Shown: positions 15,399 through 62,131 of the stretch, piece after piece
How positions within the stretch are numbered: position 1 is the stretch's first letter
Layout of the letters: the number at the start of each line of letters is the position of its first letter
NCBI RefSeq assembly: GCF_000442315.1
Contig: NZ_KE557320.1
Span: forward strand, 831,606 to 895,605
Length of the DNA: 64,000 bases
Direction of reading: 5' to 3'
From: Rubellimicrobium thermophilum DSM 16684
Lineage (GTDB): Bacteria; Pseudomonadota; Alphaproteobacteria; Rhodobacterales; Rhodobacteraceae
Position numbers and translations under genes: made by a program
The notes under the pieces: model-generated
Seen by the model: the letters and a program-made list of their open reading frames with translations, nothing else
Database searches by the model: none
Told to the model about the DNA's origin: nothing

Positions 15399-17695
15399 TC
15401 ACTGGGGATTGTCGATGCGCATCTGGACGCGCACCGTTCCCCGCACCGCCGTGCCCCAGTTGATGCGGATCTGCCGGCGATCGGGTCCGTATTCCGCTTC
15501 GGTCCAGGGCATCTCGTGCACCGTCTGACCGGCCGCATCCTGGATGCGGCCCACCGGAACGACCGATTCGACCACCCGAGCCCGTGCCCCGAAGGGCAGC
15601 CATGTGCCGGGATCACAGACCCAGTTGCGGCTGGCCGTGGCCTGCGTGTGCGTCATCGAGAGGGGATTGCGCACCTCCTGATTGACCCCGGAGAAGGTGT
15701 TGCCCGCAAAGGTGATGTTGCGGAAGCGCGAATAGTCGAGATCGGCATGGGTGGTATCCACGCGCTCGATGCGGTCGATGTTGCCGTTGATCGGCCGGAA
15801 GACATTGTTCGTCACCGTCAGGCCATGGATGTAGTGGCCGGGCCCGAAGGGCTTGATCACCAGCCAGTTGAACCAGGGCGCGACATTGATGACGGTGAAG
15901 ATGTTCCCCGTCACCGTCAGCCCGCCAAAGCTGAACTGGCTGTTGAAGGCGGGCGTCGCGTCATGTTCGTTGGTCCACTCGATGAAGTTGTTGTCGATGT
16001 AGTTGCCGACGATCAGCGCCATCGGGTTCGGCGTGGTCAGGATCAGCCCTCCCTTGCGGATGCCGTTGGTCGTGTCATCGCCATGGAACCAGTGATTGCC
16101 CGAAATGACGCTGCCCGTGCCGCCGATCACCGCGAAATGCATGAAGCGGACGATGCGGTTGTCGCGCACTTTCACGTCATTGGCATTCGAGTTGAAGACC
16201 AGCGTCTTGCGTTCGCTGACCGGCAGGGACTGTTCGTTGGACAGGAACTGGCAGCGGTCGATCAGCATCCCCTGGCAGCCCCGCCCGATGGAGGTGATCG
16301 CGCGGTCCTTCGGTCTGGTGAAGAAGCAGTCGCGGACCTGGAAGATCAGCCCCTGCCGGGCAAGCATGATCGCGCTGGCCTGGCCGTTGCACTGGAACTC
16401 CACATCCGCGATGGTCATCGCCTGGAGATCGTCATAGCCCGAGAAATCCAGAAGATACTTGAAGCGGCGGAAGGTGTAGGTCTGGGTGCCGGCCGCGCCG
16501 TAGAGCTCGGCCGAGAGGGTCAGGCTGCCCTGCGCGACATTGACATCGCGCACATAGACCTCGCGCCCCACGCCATTGCCCGTCACCAGACTGCCCACGG
16601 GAATGTTCGCCACATTCACCACATTGGTGAGCTGAAGCGGATTGGCGGGCGAATAGCTGGCCTGGCTTGTCACCACCGTGTCGGCAAAGGCGGCCGCTGA
16701 TCCTTCGGCCGGATGGAACTGGCCGTTGCGGATCACACGGCGCTGGGCAAAGACGGTGCGACCGGGATCGCAGGCCTGCATGTCCACCGGACCGGACAGG
16801 GCAATGCGCCGCCCGCACAGATCCAGCCCCTCATGGTCGGAGAAGTTCAGCAGCGCCTGATAGGCCTTGCGGAAGGCCGTCTCCTCGTTGCCGAAGGCGT
16901 CGATATAGCTGTTCAGATCGAAATTCCGCTGAAGGAGGAAGCGGCGGGCGGGCGGCTGGATGACGGTGCCCTCGAAGCGGACGGGATTGCGGAAGGTCAC
17001 GTCGCCATCGAGGAATAGGTGCCCGCGGGAACCAGCACCTCGCGCCCCTGGGCGGCATTGTCGGCGGCGTTGAAGGCGGGGGCGTCATTCGTCGTGCCGT
17101 CCCCCCTTGCCCCGTAGTCCCGCACATCCACGCGCGCGAGCATGTCGCGCAGGAAGACATGCGTCACATCCTCGATGGCGATGTCGTCGATGCGCAGCAC
17201 CGCGCCGTTCGGCCCCGTCACATCGAGCCCCAGATGCGCCGAGGCGACGGCCGGCGACCAGACGAGATCGACCCCGTTGCGGTTCGAGACGGCAATGATG
17301 GCCGAGATCTCGACCACCTGGCCATAGCCGGGGATGGCCCTGGCCGGGCCGGTCACGGGCAGGCCGGCGATCGCGCTGCCCGAGGCGCTGAGGGGATGGC
17401 CCGCGATGCGCACCGAAGGCAGGGGACCGGCCACGCATTTGACGCGTGCCGTCACGCGCAGGAACAGGCCCGGCATGAAGGGTGTCGCGATCATGCAGCG
17501 CAGTTTCTGCGTGCCGGTCGTCTTGACGATCTCGAGACAGCCCCCGAAGTCCTGATCGGCCGGAACGAAGACGCCGCCCCCTGCGCCGGCATAGGTATCG
17601 GACCCCGGCGTGCCGTCGCCGCTCGACCAGTTCGAGAGGCCCGCCGCAAAGGGCGGCGGCATGAGTGCCAGTCCGTCGGTAATGGCCCTGTTCAT
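15399..17695 (-). CDS. Pectate-lyase/GH28-related right-handed beta-helix protein (frame broken near 17014)
   Basis: A 765-residue protein after restoring one T at about 17014-17015, where GTY should read on into a DGDVTFRNPV-like sequence. The N-terminal 200 residues form a carbohydrate-module-like beta domain (MNRAITDGLALMPPPFAAGL, then ATPFMPGLFLRVTARV). Then comes the pectate-lyase superfamily entry motif VRDYGARGDGTTNDAPAF near residue 206. The rest is rich in parallel beta-helix rungs with N-G-N turns (SGNHWFHGDDTTNGI, VGNYIDNNFIEW, TGNIFTVIN, AGNTFSGVN). No signal peptide is seen. I recall this architecture as widespread in Rhodobacterales. A spike or polysaccharide-binding role is possible; enzyme activity is not demonstrated. 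Confidence 0.85.
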
Positions 17696-17793
17696 CGGTG
17701 ATCCCCCGGAATGCGTTTCGGCCCGCCGAGGGATAGGAGGAAGAGGTTAACGCTTTCCTACAGCACCGCGCGCTCCACCGGCCCTTTGTGCAA

Positions 17794-17834: not shown

Positions 17835-18245
17835 TCAGACCATTCCCTCCATGGGCGGAAGGATCCAGACCCCGTTGATCTTCCATCCATCTTCCTGTTC
17901 GATCATCTCATAGTCGAGAACCCAGTCCCGCCCGTCCGGGCCCGTGACGGCCACGCGCTGGCGCAGGCGCCCCCCCTCCTCGCGCAGATCGAGGAAACGG
18001 GCGTTGCGGTTGTCCCAGACCATCGGATAACCGCCCTGCACCATCGCCCCGAAGCGTTCGGGCGTCCCGAAGATGCCGCGGATGGCACGGCTGGCATGAT
18101 CCCATGCGCCAGCGATGTCGCGGGCCGTGAAATCCGCAAGCTGATCGGCAATGACCGCCTCGATGGCTGCGCGATCCCCGGCCTCCTGGGCGGACAGGAC
18201 CGGAGCGAAGGACAGAAGACAGGCCGTGACAAGAAGGCTTCGCAT
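17835..18245 (-). CDS. DUF4864 exported protein
   Basis: A 136-residue protein with signal peptide MRSLLVTACLLSFAPVLSAQ and a mature domain of the SnoaL/NTF2-like DUF4864 type: RAAIEAVIADQLADFTARDIAGAWDHAS, YPMVWDNRNARFLDL, and the end DWVLDYEMIEQEDGWKINGVWILP. Such domains bind small ligands or are structural; function unknown. The ATG at 18245 starts the signal peptide. The gene is divergent from the CHAD gene at 18350. Confidence 0.82.
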   Translation of the reverse strand: MRSLLVTACLLSFAPVLSAQEAGDRAAIEAVIADQLADFTARDIAGAWDHASRAIRGIFGTPERFGAMVQGGYPMVWDNRNARFLDLREEGGRLRQRVAVTGPDGRDWVLDYEMIEQEDGWKINGVWILPPMEGMV

Positions 18246-18349
18246 GGCGGATCTCCGGGGATGGGGATCGGGGAATTGGGATCGGGACACTTGAAGGATA
18301 CGAGGCACGACCAAGATCAGTTTCGGCTGCAATCCGGAAAGTTCCCGCC

Positions 18350-19216
18350 ATGCCCTATGCGATCCTGTCGAGCGATGCGTCGGTGAACGACGCCTTTCAC
18401 CGCATCCTGCGCGAGCAGATCGAAGAGGCGGTCGCCGCCGCACGGGGCGAGGGAGAGCTGGCCCCCCGCGTCCATGCCATGCGCAAGGCGGTGAAGAAGA
18501 TGCGCGGATTGATGCGGCTCGTCCGGCCCGTGCTGCCCGAGGCCGCAAGCGGCAATGCCCTGCTGCGCGAGGCCGGACGCCGCCTGTCGGAGCTGCGCGA
18601 TTCGGCCGTCATGCTGGCCGCTGTCGAACGGATCGCCGAAGGCATGGACCCCGCGCGTCGCGCCGCGCTCGAGGCGCCCTTCCGCGCCCATGCCGCCAAT
18701 CATGCCGAGAGCGCCGCAGCCATCCTGCCCGCCTTTGCCGAGGCCCTGGAGAGCATCCTCCACGAGGCCGGGGGATGGCGGCTGCGCAAGGATGGCTGGG
18801 CGGCCCTGGAGCCGGGCCTTGCCGCGACATGGACGGCCACCCGCCGGGCGATGCGCGCCGCCCGGGCCGAGCCGGGGGTCGAGGCGATCCATGACTGGCG
18901 CAAGCGGGTCAAGGACCACTGGTATCAGGCGCGGCTGCTGATGCCGATCTGGCCCGAGATGATGAAGCCGCATGTCGCCGCGGCCGACGCCCTGGGCGAA
19001 TGGCTGGGCGAGGCGAATGACCTGGCGGTGCTGACCGAGCGGCTGGGACAGACGGATCTTGCGCCCGATCTGGTCGAGGAGGCGGGACAGCGGGCCGAGG
19101 AGCGGCGGCGGGAAATCCTGGCCACCGCCTTTCCCCTGGGCCGCCGCCTCTTTGCCGCCGACCCGGACCATCTTCTGGCCCGCTGGCGGGTCTGGTGGAA
19201 GCTGCGGGAGGCGTGA
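18350..19216 (+). CDS. CHAD domain protein
   Basis: A 288-residue all-helical CHAD protein. Two helical bundles contain the conserved histidine/basic signatures VHAMRKAVKKMRGLMRLVRPVL near residue 42 and IHDWRKRVKDHWYQARLL near residue 182, plus LGEWLGEANDLAVLTE. CHAD domains bind polyphosphate through their basic surface and often associate with CYTH phosphatases or polyphosphate granules. No CYTH or ppk gene is in the window. It converges with lysS, about 40 bases apart, with a CCCCCGGGGG palindrome between. Confidence 0.9.
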   Translation: MPYAILSSDASVNDAFHRILREQIEEAVAAARGEGELAPRVHAMRKAVKKMRGLMRLVRPVLPEAASGNALLREAGRRLSELRDSAVMLAAVERIAEGMDPARRAALEAPFRAHAANHAESAAAILPAFAEALESILHEAGGWRLRKDGWAALEPGLAATWTATRRAMRAARAEPGVEAIHDWRKRVKDHWYQARLLMPIWPEMMKPHVAAADALGEWLGEANDLAVLTERLGQTDLAPDLVEEAGQRAEERRREILATAFPLGRRLFAADPDHLLARWRVWWKLREA

Positions 19217-19256: not shown

Positions 19257-20870
19257 TCAGTCCGGGCGGACGCCGCCCTCGCCGCTCGCCTCCGGGCGGT
19301 CCTGCGCCAGAGCCAGCGCCCCTTCGATGAGCCGCACCGTCTCTTCCACGCCATAGAGCGCGGCAAAGCCGCCGAAGCGTGGCCCCTCCGAGGCGCCGAG
19401 CAGCACCTCGTAGAGAGCGCGGAACCAGTCGCGCAGCGGCTCGAAGCCATGCTCCTTGCCGACGGCATAGACAATGGCCTGGAGTTCCTCGGGGTCCTGG
19501 CTGCCTGTGTGATCCCTGAGCCGCGCGGCCAGATCGGCCATGGCGGCGGCCTCGTGCGCGGTGGGGGCACGATAGCGGCGGTTCGGCTTCACATGGGTCT
19601 GGAAGTAGCGCACCGCCTGTCCCGCGGCGGCGTCGAGGCCGGGATGCGTCTCGGGCGAGGCCTCGGGCGCGTAGCGGCGCAGATAGCGCCACAGGACGGC
19701 CTTGTCCTCGGCCCCGGCGACCGCGGCCAGATTGAGCAGCATCGCATAGGGCACCACCATGTCCGAGGCGGGCGGATGCCCCTCATGGATGTGCCAGACA
19801 GGGTTCTGGAGCTGCGCATCCGCATCCTGTCCGGGGAAGGCACGCAGCGACTGGTGGTATTCGTCCACCATCTTCGGGATCACGTCCCAGTGCAGCCGCT
19901 TGGCCGTGCGCGGCTTCTGATACATGAAATAGGACAGGGATTCGGTCGAGGCGACCTCGAGCCATTCGTCGATGGTCAGCCCGTTCCCCTTGGACTTGGA
20001 GATCTTCTGCCCGTTCTCGTCGAGGAACAGCTCGTAGATCATGTGATTGGGGGGCCGGCCGCCCAGCACCCGGCAGATGCCGTCATAGATCGGCGTGTTG
20101 GAGGCATGGTCCTTGCCATACATCTCGAAATCCACGCCCAGCGCTGCCCAGCGGGCGCCGAAATCCGGCTTCCACTGCAGCTTGGCATGGCCGCCGGTGA
20201 CAGGAACCGTGAATTCGCGCCCCGTGCCATCGTCGAAGGTGATCGTCCCCTCCCTGGCATTCACCTCGCGCAGGGGAACATAGAGGACGCGGCCCGTCTC
20301 CGGATGGATCGGCAGGAAGCAGGAATAGGTCTGCTGACGCTCCTCCCGCAGGGAGGGGAGCATGATCTCCATGATCGCGTCATAGCGTTCGGCCGCACGC
20401 AGCAGCGTCTCGTCGAAGCGGCCGGAGCGGTAGAACTCCGTCGCCGAGACGAATTCGTAATCGAAGCCGAAGGTATCAAGAAACCGCCGCAGCATCGCAT
20501 TGTTGTGATGGCCGAAGCTCTCATGCTCGCCGAAGGGGTCGGGCACGGCGGTCAGGGGCTTCTGGAGATGCTGGCGCAGCATCTCGGGATTCGGGACGTT
20601 CTCGGGCACCTTGCGCATGCCGTCGAGATCGTCCGAAAAGACGATCAGCCGCGTCGGCATGCCGCTGATCGCCTCGAAGGCCCGGCGGATCATGGTGGTG
20701 CGCAACACCTCGCCGAAGGTGCCGATATGCGGCAGACCGGAGGGGCCATAGCCCGTCTCGAACAGCACATGATCCTTTGGGGGCCCGGATTCGACCCGTT
20801 TCAGGAGAGCGCGCGCCTCCTCGAAGGGCCAGGCGCGGCTTCGCATCGCCGCCTCGCGCGCAATCGTCAT
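19257..20870 (-). CDS. lysS: Lysyl-tRNA synthetase, class I
   Basis: A class I LysRS, the archaeal-type enzyme that charges tRNA-Lys in many alphaproteobacteria in place of the usual class II enzyme. Class I signatures are clear: the HIGH-type PSGLPHIGTFGEV near residue 44 and the KMSKS-type KISKSKGNGL. The core motifs SDDLDGMRKVPEN and MYGKDHASNTPIYDGICRVLGGRPP are also intact. It has 537 residues from the ATG at 20870. An in-frame ATG at 20846 is an alternative. No second, class II, lysS is seen in the window. Confidence 0.95.
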   Translation of the reverse strand: MTIAREAAMRSRAWPFEEARALLKRVESGPPKDHVLFETGYGPSGLPHIGTFGEVLRTTMIRRAFEAISGMPTRLIVFSDDLDGMRKVPENVPNPEMLRQHLQKPLTAVPDPFGEHESFGHHNNAMLRRFLDTFGFDYEFVSATEFYRSGRFDETLLRAAERYDAIMEIMLPSLREERQQTYSCFLPIHPETGRVLYVPLREVNAREGTITFDDGTGREFTVPVTGGHAKLQWKPDFGARWAALGVDFEMYGKDHASNTPIYDGICRVLGGRPPNHMIYELFLDENGQKISKSKGNGLTIDEWLEVASTESLSYFMYQKPRTAKRLHWDVIPKMVDEYHQSLRAFPGQDADAQLQNPVWHIHEGHPPASDMVVPYAMLLNLAAVAGAEDKAVLWRYLRRYAPEASPETHPGLDAAAGQAVRYFQTHVKPNRRYRAPTAHEAAAMADLAARLRDHTGSQDPEELQAIVYAVGKEHGFEPLRDWFRALYEVLLGASEGPRFGGFAALYGVEETVRLIEGALALAQDRPEASGEGGVRPD

Positions 20871-20967
20871 GGGTCCCACTCCCGTTCTCTGTGGCCCGGA
20901 CCCCCTATTGCCGCCGCTGCGTCCCGTCAATAAATCTGGCCTGCCGGTTGCGCAGGAAGGCTCTGTC

Positions 20968-21409
20968 ATGCAGGATCCGACGCCCCTCCCGGGGAATGCC
21001 GGGGAACTTTCGCCGCAGGATGCGCTGGTGGCGGTGATGATCGCGACATCGGTGTCGGACGAGGCGGTGCGCACCGCGGAACTGGTGCTGATCCAGAACA
21101 TCGTGGACAACCTGCCCGTCTTCGGCACCTATGATGCCGAACGCATGGCCTGCGTGGGGGAGGATGGTCATGACCCTCATGCAGGAGGAAGACGGGCTCG
21201 ACCGCCTGTTCGACAGCGTGCGTCGTGCCCTGCCCGAACGCCTGTGGGAGACGGCCTATGCGCTGGCCTGCGATGTGGCAGCCGCGGATGGGCGGATCAG
21301 CAGCGCCGAGGCCCGAATGCTCGAGGAGATCCGCCACGAACTGCAGGTGGACCGCCTCCATGCGGCCGCCATCGAGCGCGGGGCGCGGGCGCGCTATCAG
21401 CGCGCCTGA
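20968..21409 (+). CDS. Tellurite-resistance TerB family protein (frame broken near 21158)
   Basis: A 146-residue TerB-like helical protein after correction. The first half (LSPQDALVAVMIATSVSDEAVRTAELVLIQNIVDNLPVFG) and second half (RRALPERLWETAYALACDVAAADGRISSAEARMLEEIRHEL) are in different frames. One G too many in the G5 run at 21156-21160 accounts for the switch (…CVGRMVMTLM…). The second half has the acidic DxxxxxxE metal-site pattern of TerB. It is divergent from lysS. No ter operon neighbours are present, so this is a stand-alone TerB of unknown role. Confidence 0.8.
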
Positions 21410-23693: not shown

Positions 23694-25349
23694 CTAGCGC
23701 GTGAACTTCTTGAACTTCACCCGCTTCGGTTCCACCGCATCCGGCCCGAGGCGGCGCTTCTTGTCCTCCTCATAGGCGCTGAAATCCCCCTGGAACCATT
23801 CCACATGCGCCTCGCCCTCGAAGGCGAGGATATGGGTGCAGATGCGGTCGAGGAAGAAGCGGTCGTGCGAGATGACCACGGCGCAGCCGGCAAAGTCCAT
23901 CAGCGCGTCCTCGAGTGCGCGGAGCGTCTCCACATCGAGGTCGTTGGTCGGCTCGTCGAGCAGCAGCACATTGCCGCCCGATTTCAGCAGCTTGGCCATA
24001 TGCACGCGGTTGCGTTCGCCGCCCGACAGCAGGCCGACCTTCTTCTGCTGATCGGCACCGCGGAAGTTGAAGGCGCTGCAATAGGCCCGGCTGTTCATCG
24101 TTGCATCGCCCAGCTCGATCAGCTCTGCCCCGCCCGAGATCTCCTCCCAGACGGTGGCATCGGGGTTCAGGGCATCGCGCGACTGGTCCACATAGGCCAG
24201 CTTGACCGTGTCCCCATAGGTGATCGTGCCGGCATCGGGCTGTTCCTGCCCGGTGAGCATGCGGAACAGCGTCGTCTTGCCGGCGCCATTCGGGCCGATC
24301 ACGCCTACGATGCCCCCCCGGCGGCAGGGAGAAGGACAGATCCTCGATCAGCAGCTTGTCGCCCTTGGCCTTGCGCAGACCTTCGACCTCGATCACCTTG
24401 GATCCGAGGCGGGGGCCGTTGGGAATGACGATCTGCGCCGTCGTGATCCGCTCCCGCTCCGAGGTCTGGGCGAGTTCGTTGTAGCGCTCGATCCGGGCCT
24501 TCTGCTTGGCCTGCCGGGCGCGCGCGCCCTGGCGGATCCATTCCAGCTCCCGGGCAAGGGTCTTCTGACGGGCCTTGTCCTCACGCGCTTCCTGCTCGAG
24601 GCGTTTCGCCTTCTGTTCGAGCCAGGCGGAATAGTTCCCTTCCCACGGGATGCCGCGGCCGCGATCGAGCTCGAGGATCCAGCCGGTGATGTTGTCGAGG
24701 AAATAGCGGTCATGGGTGACGATCAGGATCGTCCCCTTGTAGGCGATCAGATGGTTCTGGAGCCAGGCGATCGTCTCGGCATCGAGGTGGTTCGTCGGCT
24801 CGTCGAGCAGCAGCATGTCCGGCGCCTCGAGCAGAAGCCGGCAGAGGGCGACGCGCCGCCGCTCTCCCCCCGAGAGAGTCGTCACATCGGCATCTCGGGG
24901 GGGCAGCGCAGTGCCTCCATCGCCACATCCACCTGCGCGTCGAGATCCCACAGGTTCTGCGCGTCGATCTGATCCTGGAGGCGGGCCATCTCCTCGGCCG
25001 TCTCCTCGGAATAGTCCATCGCCAGTTCGTTGTAGCGGTCGAGGATGGCCTGCTTGGCCTTCACCCCCTCCATGACATTGCCGCGCACGGTGAGACTCTC
25101 GTCCAGCACCGGTTCCTGCGGCAGGTAGCCGACGCGGACGCCCTCGGCCGCCCAGGCCTCGCCGGTGAAGTCCTTGTCGATGCCGGCCATGATGCGCAGC
25201 AGCGAGGACTTGCCCGCCCCGTTGACGCCGACGACGCCGATCTTCACGCCGGGCAGGAAGTTGAGGCGGATATTCTCGAACACCTTCTTGCCGCCGGGAT
25301 AGGTCTTGGAGACCTGATCCATGTGATAGACGAACTGATAACTGGCCAT
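23694..25349 (-). CDS. ettA: Energy-dependent translational throttle protein EttA (two frame breaks)
   Basis: An ABC-F protein that gates the ribosomal 70S initiation complex in response to ATP/ADP. Corrected length is 551 residues, as in E. coli (555). Domain 1 has Walker [41 protein letters not shown], then the linker arm and a second set with [19 protein letters not shown] and LDEPTNDLD. Break 1: a C7 run (minus strand) at 24897-24903 lacks one C between EALRCPP and RDADVTT. Break 2: a G7 run at 24313-24319 has one G too many between SLPPGG and IVGVIGPNG. Both catalytic halves are intact, so this is probably an assembly artefact. Confidence 0.93.
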
Positions 25350-25494
25350 GAGGGGCGCCTCGGGATCTGGATGGTCCGGTTCCGGCCCTCTTAGCGGGGG
25401 GGACCAGGAACAACCGGGCAACAGAACCGGCCGCACGGGGCCATGGAACCGGATCGCCGATCGCGCGTTCAGCCGCGGTGGAGCCCCACCCGAC

Positions 25495-26913
25495 ATGCCG
25501 GAGCCTGCCCCCATGGCCGATGCCGATCCCCGCGACGATGCCGCGGTCACCCCGCCGGTGACGCCGGGCATCGACATCGAGCATGTCATCGAACTGCGAC
25601 GGATCCGGCGGCTGCTCTTCGGCATCCTGCTGCTCGTGGTGTTCACGGCGGTCTATTTCGCCCGCATCGTCCTGCTGCCCATCATGATCGCGATCATGCT
25701 GACGCTGACGCTCCTGCCCGTGGTCAGGGCGGCCGCACGGATCGGCATTCCCAACGGGGTCACTGCCATCGTCCTGATGCTGACCCTGTCCACCGGTCTG
25801 GTGGCCGGGGGATACACCCTGTCGGGGCCGGTCCAGTCCATGATCGCCGATGCCCCGCGCATCGCCGAGGCGGTGCAGCAACGCGTCGGCGGCCTGATCG
25901 GGCAGATCCGTGACATCGCACAACGGGCCGAACGGATGGCGGAATCCGTCACCGAGGAGGCCTCCGGCGCGGCCGCTGCCGGCGGCGACAAAGCCGGAGC
26001 GGGCGGATCGCCCGACGACGGATCGCCCGACGGTGACACCGCGATCGTCGCCGTCGTTCAGGACGATGGCTCGGGGCTGGCCGGATCCGGCATGGCGACA
26101 ACGGTCCTGAGCGGCGCGGCCTCGACGGGTAGCACGCTGTTCGCGGCGCTGCTGCTCACGGGGTTCCTGCTGGCCGCGGGAGACTTCTACCACCGGCGGA
26201 TCGTCGAGGCCGCGCCGCGCCTGCGCGACAAGAAGAAGGCCCTGACCATCGTCCGCGACGTGGAGCGGCAGATCTCGCGCTATCTGGCCGCGATCACGGT
26301 CATCAACATCGCGCTGGGCATCGCGGTGGGCACGATCATGTGGTTCTGGGCCATGCCGGCACCGATCCTGTGGGGAGTCGTCGCAGCGCTGCTGAACTTC
26401 ATCCCCTTCATCGGCTGCATTATCGGCGTCATCCTGGCCGGTGCGGTTGCGATCATCACCTATGACACGCTCTGGCTCGCGATGGGCCCACCGCTGAGCT
26501 ATCTGCTCCTCAACACGATCGAGGGCAATGTCATCACCCCCATGCTGGTCGGCCGGCGGCTGGAGATCAACACCGTCGCGATGCTGATCGCCGTCGCCTT
26601 CTGGATGTGGATCTGGGGCATTCCCGGCGCGATCCTGGCGGTGCCCTTCCTCGTGGTGGTCAAGGCGATCGCCGACAATGTGGACAGCCTCCAGATCCTC
26701 TCCAGCTTCCTGTCGGCCGAGCCGGGAGAGCGCGAGGGCGAGACGCCCCGCAAGGCGACGACAGGACCCGCTCTTGACACCGCGCCCTTCCGCGCCCAGG
26801 CCGTCGCCCGCGAGGAAAGCCCCCCCACCCGTGCACCGGGCGAAGGCGCGCCGGGCGACGACCCCGCTGCACCGGACGGCTCCCTGCGCCCCGGTCCTGC
26901 CGCCGTTGCCTGA
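25495..26913 (+). CDS. AI-2E family transporter
   Basis: A 472-residue membrane protein of the PerM/AI-2E transporter family, about seven or eight helices. Segments include [30 protein letters not shown], a central hydrophobic block and the family end [33 protein letters not shown] cytoplasmic or periplasmic loop near residues 155-190 is rich in Gly/Ala/Asp ([18 protein letters not shown]), and the C-terminal 65 residues are a proline-rich tail. Substrates vary, and autoinducer-2 export is not established for most. Starts at 25495 or 25513 are possible. It is divergent from ettA. Confidence 0.88.
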
Positions 26914-28907: not shown

Positions 28908-29503
28908 GACGGCTGCCGCCGATCGGCCGCCGGCAGGCGGTGGGGCTGCTCGGCGGCTCCTTCGATCCGCCCCATGCCGGCCATGTGCAGGTCACGCAGA
29001 CCGCCCTGCGCCGTCTCGGGCTCGACCGCGTCTGGTGGCTGGTCAGCCCGGGCAATCCGCTCAAGACCCGCGGCCCGGCCCCCCTGCCCCAACGCATGGC
29101 TGCTGCCCGGGCGATCCTGCGGGGCCATCCGCGCGTGCAAGTCACGGATATCGAGGTCCGCCTTGGCACGCGCTACACGGCCGAGACGCTGACGCGGCTG
29201 CGCCGGCTGGCCCCCGGCCTGCGCCTGGTGTGGATCATGGGATCCGACAACCTCCTGCAGTTCCACCGCTGGCACGACTGGCAGCGGATCATGAGGATGG
29301 TCCCCGTCTGCGTCGTCGCCCGCCCCGGCGCCCGCCTTGCGGCCCGTTTCGCCCCGGCCGCCCGTGCCTTCCGGCATGCGCAGCTCAACGAAAGCGAGGC
29401 GCGCGCCCTTGCCCGCCGCAAACCCCCGGCCTGGGTCGTGCTGAACATGCCTCTCAACCCCCTGTCCTCGACCGCTTTGCGGCATGCGCTCTCGGCGGAG
29501 TGA
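28904..29503 (+). CDS. nadD: Nicotinate-nucleotide adenylyltransferase
   Basis: NadD makes nicotinic acid adenine dinucleotide from NaMN and ATP in NAD synthesis. The T/HxGH-type motif is [16 protein letters not shown] near residue 14; [33 protein letters not shown] and the end [12 protein letters not shown] (an ISSTxLR-like motif) are present. The 199-residue length is normal. It is coupled to the propeller gene upstream through ATGA. In many genomes nadD is next to rsfS; no rsfS is seen downstream here. Confidence 0.95.
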
Positions 29504-29585
29504 GGGAGACAGGGTTGTGTGGGACCAGGCTCGGGCTAGGCTGCGCAGGACAGGCGGCCGGGGAGTCCATGGGGAGAGTCAGGGC

Positions 29586-31114
29586 ATGACAGCAGGGCAG
29601 ATCACGCGGCGGGGCCTGCTGGCAGGGGGGCTGACGATGCTGGCCGGGGCGGCATGGGCCGAAGCGCCCGGCACCGCCTTGCGTCCCCGTGCCCGCGCCG
29701 GCCTGTCCGCCGGATCAGGCGGCCCGCCCCGCCCTGGCGTCAGCCCTTCGCCAAGGGCGGACATCGCCGCAATGGTGCGCGAGGCCGGCCTCGAGGGGCG
29801 GGTCTCCGTTGCCCTCGTGGATCTGCGGACAGGCACGATCCTCGATGCGCTGGATCCCACCCGCCCGGTTCCTCCCGCCTCGGTCGCCAAGGCCGCGACC
29901 GCCCTCTACGCCATCGAGACACTGGGCCCCGACCATCGTTTCCGCACCCGTGTGCTGGCCACGGGGCCCGTGCAGGACGGGCTTGTGGAGGGCGATCTGA
30001 TCCTTGCCGGCGGGGGCGATCCGGTGCTGACGACAGACCGCCTCGCCGATCTGGCCCGCCCTGCTGCGACGAACGGCCGGCATCACCGGCCGGCCCGGGG
30101 TCTTTCGCGTCGGTGGGGGGGCCGCCCTCGCCCCATGTCGAGGAGATCGCGCCCGAGCAGCTCGACCATCTTGCCTACAATCCTTCGCTCTCGGGGCTCA
30201 ATCTCAACTTCAACCGGGTGTTCTTTGCCTGGCAGCGCGAGGGCAGCGGCTGGCGTCTCAGCCTCGATGCCCGGGGGGACCGCTACCGCCCCGAGGTGCA
30301 GATCGCCCGCATCACGGCCGAACCGCGGAGCCTGCCCGTCTACACCTATCGGCGCGAGGCCGGGATCGATGTCTGGACGGTGGCCGATCGGCAACTGGGC
30401 GAATCCGGTTCGCGATGGCTGCCGGTGCGGGACCCGGCGCTCTATGCCGGACAGGGCCTTCCGCGGAGTGGCGAAGGAGATGGGCACGATCCTGCCCCCG
30501 CTGCGCCGATCGCGGCGCTGCCCGAAGGGGCCGTGGAGCTGGCCGCCCTCGAGAGCGACCGGCTCGAGGCGATCCTCATCGACATGCTGCGCTATTCGAC
30601 CAATCTCACGGCCGAGGCGGTCGGTCTCGCGGCCTCGCAGGGGCGGGGGCTGACCCCCCTCTCGCCTGCCGAGTCCGCCTCCGCGATGACCCGCTGGATC
30701 CGCAGGCGGACGGGCGCCCGGATGCATCTGGTGGACCATTCCGGCCTGGGCGGGGAGAGCCGGATGACCGCGCAGGAGATGGCAATCATGCTGGCCGCCC
30801 CGGGGGTGATGGAAACCCTCCGGCCGCTGCTGCGCGACATCCCCCTGACCGATGCGGCCGGCACACCCCTGCCCCTGCCCCCGGCCATCGTCCGGGCCAA
30901 GACCGGGACGCTCAACTTCGTCTCGACCCTGGCCGGCTATGCCCGCACGACGCCGGGCGCTGATCTGGCCTTTGCCATCTTCGCCGCCGACCCCGAACGG
31001 CGTGCCGCCGCCTCAACCTCGGAAGAGGAGATCCCGCCCGGCAGCCGCGACTGGATCGCCCGGGCGCGGCGGCTCCAGCAGCGGCTGCTGCAGCGCTGGG
31101 GAACGATCGGATGA
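29586..31114 (+). CDS. dacB: D-alanyl-D-alanine carboxypeptidase/endopeptidase, PBP4/DacB type (four frame breaks)
   Basis: A 508-residue S13-type periplasmic penicillin-binding peptidase after corrections. A Tat-like signal is present (TRRGLLAGGLTMLAGAAWA). The catalytic SxxK is PASVAKAATA, the SxN is YSTNLTAEAVG, and the KTG is AKTGTLNFVSTLAGYA. Breaks: one extra C at about 30059-30061; one extra G in G7 at 30115-30121; one extra G near 30448-30450; and one missing base near 30495-30500 before ALPEGAVELAALES. The two frames interleave so exactly that I take them for sequence errors, although decay cannot be excluded. It cleaves D-Ala-D-Ala or meso-DAP crosslinks in peptidoglycan. Confidence 0.85.
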
Positions 31115-57669: not shown

Positions 57670-59136
57670 TCACGCGGGGATCCGGGTCAGCAGCTCGTCG
57701 AGCGACTTCTTGGCATCGCCATAGAACATCCGCGTGTTCTCGCGGTAGAACAGCGGATTCTCGATGCCCGAATAGCCCGTTCCCTGACCCCGCTTGGAGA
57801 CGATCACCGTCCGTGCCTTCCAGACTTCGAGCACCGGCATCCCGGCGATGGGGCTGTTCGGGTCCTCCTGCGCCGCCGGATTCACGATGTCGTTCGAGCC
57901 GATGACGATGGCCACATCGGTTTCCGGGAAATCCTCGTTGATCTCGTCCATCTCGAGCACGATGTCGTAAGGAACCTTCGCCTCGGCCAGAAGGACGTTC
58001 ATGTGGCCGGGCAGGCGCCCTGCGACCGGGTGGATGGCAAAACGGACGGTCTTGCCCCGGGCGCGCAGGCGGCGGGTCAGTTCCGAGACGGATCCCTGGG
58101 CCTGCGCCACCGCCATGCCATAACCGGGAACAATGATGATGGACTGCGCATCCTCAAGCAGGGCCGCAACGCCATCCGCATCGATGGCGACCTGTTCTCC
58201 CTCGATGGCTGCAGCCGGGCCGGTCGTGTTGCCAAACCCCCCGAGGATGACCGAGATGAAGCTGCGGTTCATCGCGCGGCACATGATGTAGCTCAGGATC
58301 GCCCCCGAGGCACCGACCAGCGCCCCCGTGACGATCAGCAGGTCATTGCCCAGCGTGAAGCCGATCGCTGCCGCAGCCCAGCCCGAATAGCTGTTCAGCA
58401 TCGACACGACCACGGGCATGTCGGCCCCGCCGATTCCCATGATCAGGTGGTAGCCGATGAAGAAGGCCGCCAGCGCCAGAAGGAACAGCCACAGGAACCA
58501 GCCCGTCGCGACATAGAGCACGAGAAGCAGGAGCGACAGCAGCCCCATGCCGAGATTCAGCCAGTGGCCGCCGGGAAGCTGCACGGCCTTCGATCCGATC
58601 CGTCCGGCAAGCTTGCCGAAGGCGACGACCGATCCGGTGAAGGTCACCGCGCCGATGAAGACGCCCAGGCCCACCTCGACAAGAAGGATGTTGATTTCGG
58701 CCGCCGTCTTGTGAGCGAGAACGGCGGCAAAGCCGCCAAGCTGGGCAAGCCTCTCGGCCGCTCCTTCGACACCGGCCAGGGCCTGCGCCTGAAGCCGCTC
58801 GACGCGGGCCAGCTCGATATCGGCGTTCCAGCCGATGAAGACAGCGGCAAGGCCGACGAAGCTGTGCAGCGCCGCGACGAGCTGGGGCATCTCGGTCATC
58901 TGGACGCGGCCGGCGACATGGATGCCGACCACGGCACCGATCAGGACCATGCCCGCCACGACCCAGAGATTCCCGACCCCCGGCCCGAACACCGTGGCGC
59001 CCACGGCCAGCGCCATGCCGACGATCCCGTACCAGACGGCACGCTTGGCGCTTTCCTGGTTGGAGAGGCCGCCAAGAGAAAGGATGAACAGGATGGCGGC
59101 CGCGACATAGGCAGCTCCGACAAGTCCCACGCTCAT
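57670..59136 (-). CDS. pntB: NAD(P) transhydrogenase subunit beta
   Basis: PntB, 488 residues, provides the proton channel and the NADP(H)-binding domain III of the membrane transhydrogenase that makes NADPH from NADH. About nine helices run from [22 protein letters not shown]. Domain III has [39 protein letters not shown], and [31 protein letters not shown]. It starts one base after the pntA stop. Pairing with pntA in one unit is standard. Confidence 0.96.
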
Positions 59137-59137
59137 C

Positions 59138-60712
59138 TCACGACCTCTGGAACATGGCGAGCATCCGCCGGGTGACGAGGAAACCGCCGACGATATTGAT
59201 CGAGGCGATCAGGATCGCGACGGCAGAGAAAATCACGACGAGCCAATTCCCCGATCCGACCTGCAGCAGCGCGCCGAGGATGATGATGCCCGAGATGGCA
59301 TTGGTGACCGCCATGAGCGGCGTATGCAACGCATGCGAGACGTTCCAGATGACCTGGAACCCCACGAAGCAGGCGAGCGCAAAGACGATGACATGGGCCA
59401 TGAAGCTCGCCGGAGCATAGAGGCCCACCAGACCGAGGATGATCGCCCCGGCCGAGATCAGTCCCACCTGTCGCCGGGTTTCGGCCCGGAAGCGCGCCAT
59501 CTCCTGCGCGCGACGTTCCTCGGGCGAGAGCTCCTTCGGCTTCGGCGGCTGGGGTCGGGCGGCGATGGCCGGCACCTTCGGGGGCGGCGGGGGGATAGGT
59601 GATCGCCCGGCCATGGACCACCGTGGCACCCCGGATGACGTCATCCTCCATGTTGTGCACGAGGACGCCGTCCTTGCCCGGCGTCAGATCCGCCAGCATG
59701 TGGCGGATGTTCGTCGCATAGAGCGAGGAGGCCTGCGCCGCCATGCGCGAGGGGAAGTCCGTATAGCCGATGATCGTCACGCCGTTCTCGGTCACGAACT
59801 TTTCGCCGGGAACGGTCAGCTCGCAGTTGCCGCCGCGCTCGGCCGCAAGGTCCACGATGACCGAGCCGGGTTTCATCGCCTCTACCATGTCGCGCGTCCA
59901 GAGCTTCGGCGCCGGACGCCCGGGGATCAGGGCGGTCGTGATGACGATGTCCATCTGCGGCGCCAGCTCGCGGAACTTCTCGAGCTGCTTGGCCAGGAAT
60001 TCGGGGCTGGAGGGCGCGGCATAGCCCCCCGTGGCGGCCCCGTCCTGCTGATTGTCCGAGAAGTCGAGGAAGACGAAGTTCGCCCCCATCGATTCGATCT
60101 GCTCGGCCACCTCGGGGCGGACATCGAAGGCATGGACAACGGCGCCGAGGCTGACAGCCGTGCCGATCGCCGCAAGACCCGCGACCCCGGCCCCCACCAC
60201 CAGGACCTGCGCCGGCGGCACCTTGCCCGCGGCCGTGACCTGCCCGGTGAAGAACCGGCCGAAATTGGCCCCTGCCTCGATCACCGCGCGATAGCCTGCG
60301 ATATTGGCCATCGAGGACAGCGCATCCATCTTCTGCGCGCGGCTGATGCGGGGCACCATGTCCATCGCGATCACGGTTGCGCCGCGGTCCTTCGCCTCTT
60401 CCAGCAGGGCCGCATTCTGGGCCGGGTAGAAGAAGGAAATGAGGGTCTGCCCTTCGCGCAGCCGGGCAACCTCGTCGGGCTCGGGCGGGCGGACCTTCAC
60501 GATCACATCCGCCTGCGCGATCAGGGCCGCCGCATCCGGAACGACCGTCACGCCCTCGGCCTCATAGGCGGCATCGGAGAAACCGGATGCTTCGCCAGCG
60601 CCGGATTCGATAAGGCATTCATGCCCGAGCTTGCGGATGTCCCGGGCCGATGCGGGTGTCATCGCCACCCGTGCTCCCCGGGCGCGCGTTCGCGCAGCGC
60701 GCCGATCCTCAT
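59138..60712 (-). CDS. pntA: NAD(P) transhydrogenase subunit alpha (two frame breaks)
   Basis: PntA, 524 residues after correction, carries the NAD(H) domain I and four helices. ATG at 60712 begins [13 protein letters not shown]. One base is missing near 60673, just before [26 protein letters not shown]. The Rossmann core [15 protein letters not shown] and [17 protein letters not shown] follow, then [17 protein letters not shown]. One extra base in the 6-base run at 59589-59594 separates GRAITYPP from [10 protein letters not shown]. The C-terminal helices include [14 protein letters not shown] and [17 protein letters not shown]. The protein is single-chain, not split as in some relatives. Confidence 0.93.
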
Positions 60713-60857
60713 GGCCTGTCCCCCGCCGATAGTTTCCTGCGCCGCGAATGCATAGCCGCCTCCCGGACGCCTCACAACCCTGCGAACGCCAACGGATCCG
60801 CAGGCCGGGACGGCTGTCACGAGTCCTCAGGGGGGGCAGGGCCGGCGGGGTGCCGCC

Positions 60858-60884
60858 GTCAGGGGGCTGCCGGACAGCCCTGAC
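60858..60884. repeat. Imperfect hairpin in the kynU leader
   Basis: GTCAGGG (60858-60864) pairs with CCCTGAC (60878-60884) with an inner 3-bp extension. It lies 54 bases before the kynU start and well clear of pntA. It could be a regulator site or leader hairpin; no regulator gene for kynurenine use is in the window. Confidence 0.35.
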
Positions 60885-60937
60885 CCCTGTTGCTGCCCTC
60901 CGGCAGGCCTTATCAGGGACGACAGGAAGGAACGACC

Positions 60938-62131
60938 ATGCCAACCGATTTCGCCGCCACCCGTGCGCTGTTCGATCTGCCTGCGGGACTCTGCTACCTC
61001 GATGGCAACTCGCTGGGCCCCCTGCCCCGCACCGCGCGCGAGCGGATGGCCCGGGCCATGGACGAATGGGGCCGGCTGCTGATCGGCGGGTGGAACCAGG
61101 CCGGCTGGATGGCACAGCCCGGCCTCCTTGGCGACCGGATCGGTCGGCTGATCGGCGCCGAACCGGGACACACGGTCGTGGGCGATACGCTGTCGATCAA
61201 GGTCTATCAGGCGCTGGCGGCCGCCCTTGCCCTTGTTCCGGGGCGCCGGATCGTGCTGTCCGACACGGGCAACTTCCCCTCCGATCTCTACATGGCCGAA
61301 GGGCTCCTGCGGATGCTCGGGGACGGTCATGCCCTGCGCCTTGTCGAGCCGGAAGCGGTCGGGGATGCGATCACCGAGGAGGTCGCCGTCCTGCTGCTCA
61401 CCGAGGTGGACTATCGCACGGGGCGCCGCCATGACATGCCGGCCCTGACGCGGAAGGCGCATGAGGCGGGGGCTCTGGCGATCTGGGATCTGGCCCATTC
61501 GGCCGGCGCCTTTCCGGTGGACGTGACGGCGGGCGGCGCCGATTTTGCCGTGGGCTGCACCTACAAGTATCTCAACGGCGGCCCTGGAGCCCCCGCCTTC
61601 ATCGCCGTCGCCCCTCGCCATGCGGAAGCGGCACCCGCAGCCCTCTCGGGCTGGCTCGGCCATCGTGCGCCCTTTGCCTTCGATCTGTCCTATGTGCCCG
61701 GCCGGGGGGTCGAGCGGTTCCGGGTAGGCACCCCACCGGTCCTGGCGATGGCGGCGCTCGATGCGGCGCTCGACATCTGGGACGCGATCGACATGGAGGA
61801 CCTGCGGCAACGGTCGCTTGCCCTGGCGGACCGGTTCATCAAGGGGGTCCTCGACGCCGTGCCGGAGCTCGAGCTGGTCACCCCGCGCGAGGCGGAACGG
61901 CGCGGATCCCAGGTCAGCTTCCGGCACCCGGAAGGCTATGCCGCCATGCAGGCCCTGATCGCCCGCGGGGTGGTGGGCGACTTCCGCGCGCCCGACATCA
62001 TGCGCTTCGGCATCGCCCCTCTCTACATCGGAGAGGCCGAGATCGACCGCGCGGTGGATGTTCTGGCCGAGGTCATGGAGCGGCGGCTGTGGGACAACCC
62101 GGCCTACCGCATCCGCGCGCCCGTCACCTGA
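60938..62131 (+). CDS. kynU: Kynureninase
   Basis: A 397-residue PLP enzyme that cleaves kynurenine to anthranilate and alanine in tryptophan breakdown. The PLP lysine is K210 in GCTYKYLNGGPGAPAF; GNSLGPLP, IVLSDTGNFPSDLYMAEGL, DLAHSAGAFPVDV and RVGTPPVLAMAALDAALD are family segments. The start at 60938 follows GGAAGG. No kynA or kynB is adjacent, so the pathway must be completed elsewhere if present. It is divergent from pntA with 225 bases between. Confidence 0.94.
   Translation: MPTDFAATRALFDLPAGLCYLDGNSLGPLPRTARERMARAMDEWGRLLIGGWNQAGWMAQPGLLGDRIGRLIGAEPGHTVVGDTLSIKVYQALAAALALVPGRRIVLSDTGNFPSDLYMAEGLLRMLGDGHALRLVEPEAVGDAITEEVAVLLLTEVDYRTGRRHDMPALTRKAHEAGALAIWDLAHSAGAFPVDVTAGGADFAVGCTYKYLNGGPGAPAFIAVAPRHAEAAPAALSGWLGHRAPFAFDLSYVPGRGVERFRVGTPPVLAMAALDAALDIWDAIDMEDLRQRSLALADRFIKGVLDAVPELELVTPREAERRGSQVSFRHPEGYAAMQALIARGVVGDFRAPDIMRFGIAPLYIGEAEIDRAVDVLAEVMERRLWDNPAYRIRAPVT

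Follow-up and report, generated by a model that had tools for sequence, protein, structure and literature searches.

A locus of Rubellimicrobium thermophilum that very probably encodes the gene transfer agent tailspike TspA and carries a single frame break

Introduction

TspA (Rcc02623, gene rcc02623) was described in a preprint of 20 July 2026 as the tailspike of the Rhodobacter capsulatus gene transfer agent (GTA), a protein of 763 aa (PMC13420450). It consists of an N-terminal beta-sandwich (residues 1-180), a capped right-handed beta-helix, an insertion domain and a C-terminal domain, and it is a trimeric biofilm depolymerase that is detachable and loosely held on the baseplate, with the catalytic residues D505, H533 and D566 at an inter-subunit cleft (PMC13420450). 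Its N-terminal domain resembles the GH87 alpha-1,3-glucanase of Streptomyces thermodiastaticus and is no phage-type virion anchor (PMC13420450). In R. capsulatus, tspA adjoins lysS and GafA is bound 50-100 bp upstream of it; the gene is found in almost all megatron-bearing Rhodobacterales and is absent from other Alphaproteobacteria (PMC13420450). The GTA head spikes are built differently: in the part of PMC7296036 available to us, Rcc01079/Rcc01080 (GhsA/GhsB) are described as a pentameric jelly-roll base and a flexible 325-residue fibre.

Here we analysed a 64,000-nt stretch of the R. thermophilum DSM 16684 genome, referred to throughout as the window. A preliminary description had proposed that one locus in it encodes a large beta-helix protein related to the GTA head spikes. 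The TspA kind is already known from the July 2026 preprint, and what is new here is that its active-site residues and length were checked across about a hundred relatives, together with a promoter-like element in one genome. We are highly confident that this locus holds the tspA gene of a Rhodobacterales GTA, and we regard the break in its reading frame as most likely an assembly indel. The finding extends the newly described detachable tailspike, which cuts biofilm, to another lineage.

Results

The region from 15399 to 17695 on the minus strand of the window contains two overlapping frames, ORF A and ORF B, rather than one ORF (Table 1). The beta-helix gene of the preliminary description was thus found on this strand, but not as the one continuous protein that had been assumed, and a single intact reading frame is absent from the window copy in this assembly. 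The two ORFs overlap by the sequence GTGA, and ORF A hits a stop after the frame break. The length of the stretch with the break was counted between the two conserved codons that flank it, and the difference from the relatives is a single nucleotide. A codon-usage scan trained on rpoB, rpoC and alaS of the R. thermophilum genome left one frame at 17015 and entered the other at 17033. No obvious ribosome-binding sequence was seen by eye before the GTG of ORF B. As a side observation, the profile match of alaS itself reaches only as far as position 747 of 847.

Table 1. Features of the tspA locus in the window
Feature	Coordinates	Strand	Description
lysS, lysine--tRNA ligase	19257..21128	-	E 3.5e-260
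DUF4864 gene	17835..18548	-	upstream of tspA; in 43/63 listed loci
Promoter-like element GGAGCGCGCGGTGCTGTAGGAAAGCGTTAACCTC	17743..17776	-	-81 to -48 from the tspA ATG
tspA, first part (ORF A)	16997..17695	-	232 aa from ATG; N-terminal domain plus first portion of the cap, including the pectate-lyase entry motif
Stretch with the frame break	17001..17014	-	14 nt here, 15 nt in 23/23 relatives compared
tspA, second part (ORF B)	15399..17000	-	533 aa from GTG; remaining cap, right-handed beta-helix, insertion domain, C-terminal domain; catalytic positions B275, B303, B336 (= TspA D505, H533, D566)

We examined 105 relative loci, 80 of which were the best 80 of at least 413 confirmed relatives in a scan of named genomes. 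Two of the 105 were contig-end fragments without the first part, and in all 103 listed relatives that had both parts these lay within one ORF. The ORF was 757-766 aa long in 99 of the 103, with a mode of 763 aa (39/103), and the remaining four were shorter pieces. Summed over the two frames, the parts in the window reach this family length, and we read them as one protein of about 763 aa. The split frame is a defect of this copy or of the assembly rather than a family trait. A programmed frameshift was also considered and is not supported, with none of the 103 listed relatives split at that point.

The residue numbers published for TspA were transferred through L117, the 763-aa relative from Sinirhodobacter populi that has 14 of the 19 named residues at the literal position, and not from a direct alignment to R. 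capsulatus TspA. On this numbering, the window has D505, H533 and D566, for which the alignment shows conservation in 98, 99 and 98 of its 99 rows. It keeps 12 of the 19 named positions (E271, D287, R297, E377, D505, H533, D566, E571, E575, N635, D645 and E708) and differs at D299, D542, D602, M672, M678, Y697 and N763, several of which are also variable across the TspA family. Calcium site 1 (E271, D287, R297 and D299) retains its first three ligands, with D299 changed to Ala, and calcium site 2 (D542, D602 and N635) retains N635, with both D542 and D602 changed to Asn; D299, D542, D602 and N635 vary among family members. The pectate-lyase entry motif noted earlier was recovered as PF12708 at residues 189-228 of ORF A (E 8.2e-7). 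Neither Pfam nor NCBIfam gave a match to ORF B above the curated cut-off, and PHROGs gave none at all. The N terminus, MNRAITDGLALMPPPFAAGLSNWSSGDGTPG, judged by eye, has no signal-peptide layout, in agreement with the preliminary description.

A model of ORF B, the C-terminal part of the protein, made with 27 relatives had a mean pLDDT of 91.9 and showed a predicted beta-helix. The best VIA-align match was RbmB, a biofilm polysaccharide lyase of Vibrio cholerae (Z 25.6, rmsd 3.0, 295 aligned), and several further polysaccharide enzymes tied with it within 1. RbmB is thus the closest structural match of the window beta-helix, but its solved chain has 368 residues and the identity is 16%; RbmB is not known to be a particle component. 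With the same model, Foldseek placed phage depolymerases on top at low TM-scores (0.2-0.4). Evidence for the N-terminal fold comes from the intact homologue L038 (762 aa, 65% identical to ORF B, model pLDDT 89.7) and not from ORF A itself. A beta-rich N-terminal domain was visible in the L038 model, in line with the beta-sandwich proposed for this part. Foldseek with the L038 model returned GH87 alpha-1,3-glucanases (PDB 5zru and 7c7d) in alignments over 754 and 725 columns; these are free enzymes, with 11% identity and TM-scores of 0.15-0.30. The phage tailspike depolymerases of Sf6, HK620 and Klebsiella phage K64-1 (S2-4) share the beta-helix fold, and the Sf6 active site is inter-subunit, as cited in the part of PMC13420450 available to us, but a search of 50,697 phage records gave no sequence relative of ORF B. 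A common fold does not establish function, and these single-chain models say nothing about a trimer.

A CHAD-domain gene and the DUF4864 gene lie between lysS and tspA in the window, so that lysS is two genes away. The listed lysS ORF begins at an upstream GTG, and the homology spans residues 90-606. Among the 63 listed loci with full flanks, lysS was found within 6 kb of tspA in 50, a TerB-like gene in 50 and the CHAD gene in 7. The 13 loci without lysS inside 6 kb include L038, the closest named relative among the matches listed.

With ORF B as the query, matches were found in 24 of 61 genomes, all of them of the window's family: its own genome, one of the seven others of the genus and 22 of the 29 others of the family. 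There was no match in the 24 genomes of other families. Megatron matches were found in 37 of the 61 genomes, 35 of them above the cut-off, and some belong to prophage-like clusters. Both genes were present in 23 of the family's 37 genomes, tspA only in one (G035, 86% complete), the megatron only in nine and neither in four (Fisher p 0.042), an association that by itself is weak. Nine of 32 megatron-positive family genomes therefore have no tspA match, and the 'almost all' of the preprint (PMC13420450) would suggest fewer. The species of the same genus with a megatron match and without a tspA match are G001, G002, G004, G006 and G007.

An RcGTA-type head-tail cluster lies in the same genome at C3:378041-391722. 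It has genes for an HK97 portal (1.5e-63), a prohead protease, a major capsid protein (2e-153 to Rcc01687, PDB 6tb9) and a head-tail connector, together with an Rcc01695-family distal tail protein, a baseplate hub, an NlpC peptidase and the megatron; the large terminase was placed by gene order and by a match that is weak (E 3.8e-4) and falls short of its cut-off. The locus is thus encoded away from the main GTA cluster, as had been supposed, and the GTA head genes that had been expected elsewhere in the genome are there as portal, protease and capsid, with which tspA shares a promoter-like element.

This element, upstream of tspA, is 27 bp with 15 fixed positions, and it recurs at GTA operons and at four other places. 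A 34-bp matrix was built from the upstream regions of relatives and the window and was scanned over 94 kb of stretches from the same genome and the 64-kb window. The tspA site of the window scored 22.5 bits. Just two others exceeded 20 bits, one at C3:377608 ahead of the opening ORF of the GTA cluster and one at C3:379435 ahead of the portal, and a further two reached 14.0 and 11.8 bits. Above 8 bits were 85 of 99 tspA upstream regions (the window's included) and 0 of 99 shuffles, with a matrix trained on the same sequences that it scored and a shuffle that preserves base composition only.

Genome-wide, CGGTGC-N12-TTAAC occurred at nine sites, and its reversed control at none. Five of the nine are GTA-related, namely the cluster start, the portal side, tspA, a lysis operon with a GH108 endolysin and a GTA_holin_3TM protein, and a DUF2793 gene. 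The latter is likely a tail fibre, the RcGTA tail fibre being one that presumably carries DUF2793. Of the other four sites, three precede, respectively, an aminotransferase-domain ORF, a FixG-like gene and a gene for an aldehyde dehydrogenase, and the fourth is in the stretch that follows a recX-like gene. The longer form GCGCGGTGCTGTAGGA-N5-TTAACC was found at four places: the portal side, tspA, the endolysin/GTA-holin operon and the DUF2793 gene. Only this exact long core is restricted to GTA genes, and it is so in one genome. When two mismatches were allowed, the same genome had 52 sites against 8 for the control. In genome G005 a looser form had 28 sites against 0 for the control, and one of these lies 8.4 kb ahead of the start of a megatron gene, of which G005 has three; the portal-side site of R. 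thermophilum has the same spacing. Genomes G010, G016, G020 and G025 had 0, 2, 0 and 0 sites, against 3, 4, 1 and 0 for the control. Because looser forms are common in R. thermophilum and in G005, the element is probably the GTA version of a general promoter type. In this genome it provides a sequence handle for finding scattered GTA operons.

A 13-bp palindrome, CACCGTSACGGTG, was also considered as a GTA box and was rejected. It precedes TTAAC 5' of tspA in many relatives (L002-L117). Across 18 genomes it occurred at 27 sites in 12, two of them at tspA, and in the 6-kb stretches around its sites (one of 3.5 kb) there was no match to the other GTA proteins tested. Since only two of 27 sites are at tspA and none has other tested GTA proteins nearby, the palindrome alone is no mark of a GTA.

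Discussion

The assignment of the locus to the TspA family rests on length, residues, synteny, predicted fold, the RcGTA-type cluster and the shared promoter-like element. With R. capsulatus TspA it has in common the length of about 763 aa, the order of domains, the triad D505/H533/D566 and the place beside lysS, and its promoter-like element has a position corresponding to that of GafA binding in R. capsulatus. It differs in that the frame is broken once in this assembly and in some of the calcium ligands (D299A, D542N and D602N). The active-site residues and the length of TspA are conserved over about a hundred relatives.

The preliminary description had seen a relative of the GTA head spikes in this protein. 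A spike of the GTA with a predicted beta-helix and with no signal-peptide layout by eye was retained, but the head was not, as the protein matches the tailspike TspA (Rcc02623). A head spike of the GhsA/GhsB type would likewise be a polysaccharide-directed surface part of the GTA encoded away from the main cluster. According to the part of PMC7296036 available to us, however, GhsA forms a pentamer of jelly-roll fold and GhsB a fibre of 325 aa, both located on the capsid, whereas the window protein is a predicted beta-helix with the length, residues and neighbourhood of TspA. On fold, length and residues the kinship with GhsA/GhsB was therefore rejected, and we give it hardly any credence. No RcGTA chains were found among the PDB sequence matches of ORF A, ORF B and the family profile, from a library that may not contain them. 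It is also highly improbable that the locus encodes an ordinary polysaccharide lyase or hydrolase, cytosolic or secreted, with no relation to a GTA. The nearest solved folds do include free enzymes (RbmB, polygalacturonases and GH87 glucanases), but the promoter-like element is common to GTA operons, the residues and length are those of TspA, lysS is in the neighbourhood and no signal-peptide layout was seen by eye. The preliminary description had named a clear catalytic site as a ground for refuting its proposal, and this applies by half: the published TspA catalytic residues are present, so that we read the protein as both a virion part and an enzyme.

The beta-helix fold is shared by many phage depolymerases, and relatives were found on two viral contigs, which could point to the spike of an integrated phage. 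One of these contigs, L173, however shares 7280 bp at 100% identity with the chromosomal L117 locus of Sinirhodobacter populi, ORF B is unmatched in the phage records, and the neighbourhood in the window is chromosomal and widely shared; this origin is scarcely believable. The other contig, L174, was 77% identical to L117 over 3.6 kb in a comparison at the DNA level only. A phage or plasmid gene was rejected with ORF B, which alone was used as the query and had no match in the 50,697 phage and 72,556 plasmid records. One could also take the split as natural: the frames overlapping by GTGA would then yield the carbohydrate-binding beta-sandwich module and the catalytic beta-helix as separate proteins of a two-part, separable tailspike, and GCGCGGTGCTGTAGGA-N5-TTAACC would be a GTA-specific, GafA-dependent promoter that marks the scattered GTA operons. 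We consider this combination very unlikely.

If the locus is tspA, the break in it is most likely an assembly indel, because nearby housekeeping genes and GTA genes are broken in the same way. The gene for EttA, an ABC-F translation factor (window 23697-25646, minus strand), lies in three frames (profile 3-157, 168-347 and 355-556), and that for a peptidase S13, a D-Ala-D-Ala carboxypeptidase (window 29484-30650 and 29654-31111, plus strand), in two (profile 3-111 and 221-425). The TerB-like gene has one frame change at about 21162 (plus strand). PntA is in two frames (window 59136-61115 and 59141-59644, minus strand; profile 11-386 and 366-509), although its pieces could also be the natural two-gene form, in which PntA is split in some alphaproteobacteria. 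In the GTA cluster, the distal-tail gene has one frame change and the megatron two. The break may instead be real, with tspA a fresh pseudogene in this strain that is heading for the loss seen in other members of the genus. Within the genus, a megatron match without a tspA match is seen in five of the seven other genomes, and tspA has been lost in some GTA-encoding species (PMC13420450). In addition, rpoB and rpoC are unbroken across 8.1 kb, so that indels are not everywhere in the assembly. Against a real break, the remainder of tspA is open and under purifying selection, and the adjacent conserved genes (ettA, peptidase S13 and perhaps pntA) and the GTA distal-tail and megatron genes are likewise broken. 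In a comparison with the same-genus copy, dN/dS was 0.24 and 0.32 for the two halves of tspA and 0.19 for lysS; the purifying selection that this shows for both halves fits an artefact and a recent lesion alike. Taken together, we regard a genuine lesion as unlikely and prefer the assembly indel. Many frame breaks are found in GTA and housekeeping genes of this assembly, which is therefore no basis for calling the GTA degraded.

By homology to R. capsulatus TspA, the protein of about 763 aa would have an N-terminal carbohydrate-binding beta-sandwich, a capped right-handed beta-helix, an inserted barrel and a C-terminal trimerisation domain, and it would be made together with the GTA particle. 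An export signal would be unneeded because the producing cell lyses. Trimers would dock loosely on the baseplate, made up of tail tube, distal tail protein and megatron, and biofilm polysaccharide would be cut at the inter-subunit cleft, so that particles could reach recipients embedded in slime. We infer the trimer, the enzymatic activity, the docking on the baseplate and the control by GafA from the R. capsulatus system, and that GafA may read the promoter-like element is suggested by published binding positions (PMC13420450 and the part of PMC6363796 available to us).

Some further observations concern the surroundings of related genes. In L117 and L173, integrase-like and portal-like ORFs, recognised by eye, lie immediately downstream of tspA; 109 bp separate the tspA stop from the end of the integrase-like ORF, and the region is included in a viral collection. 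In the R. thermophilum genome, tandem megatron copies are present at G000:C7:322832-333770, the first fused in frame inside a baseplate-hub-like gene (a 1486-aa ORF) and the second split by a frame change, which represents a duplication or an assembly chimera. Two more clusters, at C3:8000-22300 and C7:306000-334000, contain megatron genes of the RcGTA type with a long DUF2793-like gene after them, as judged by eye, and are perhaps prophages.
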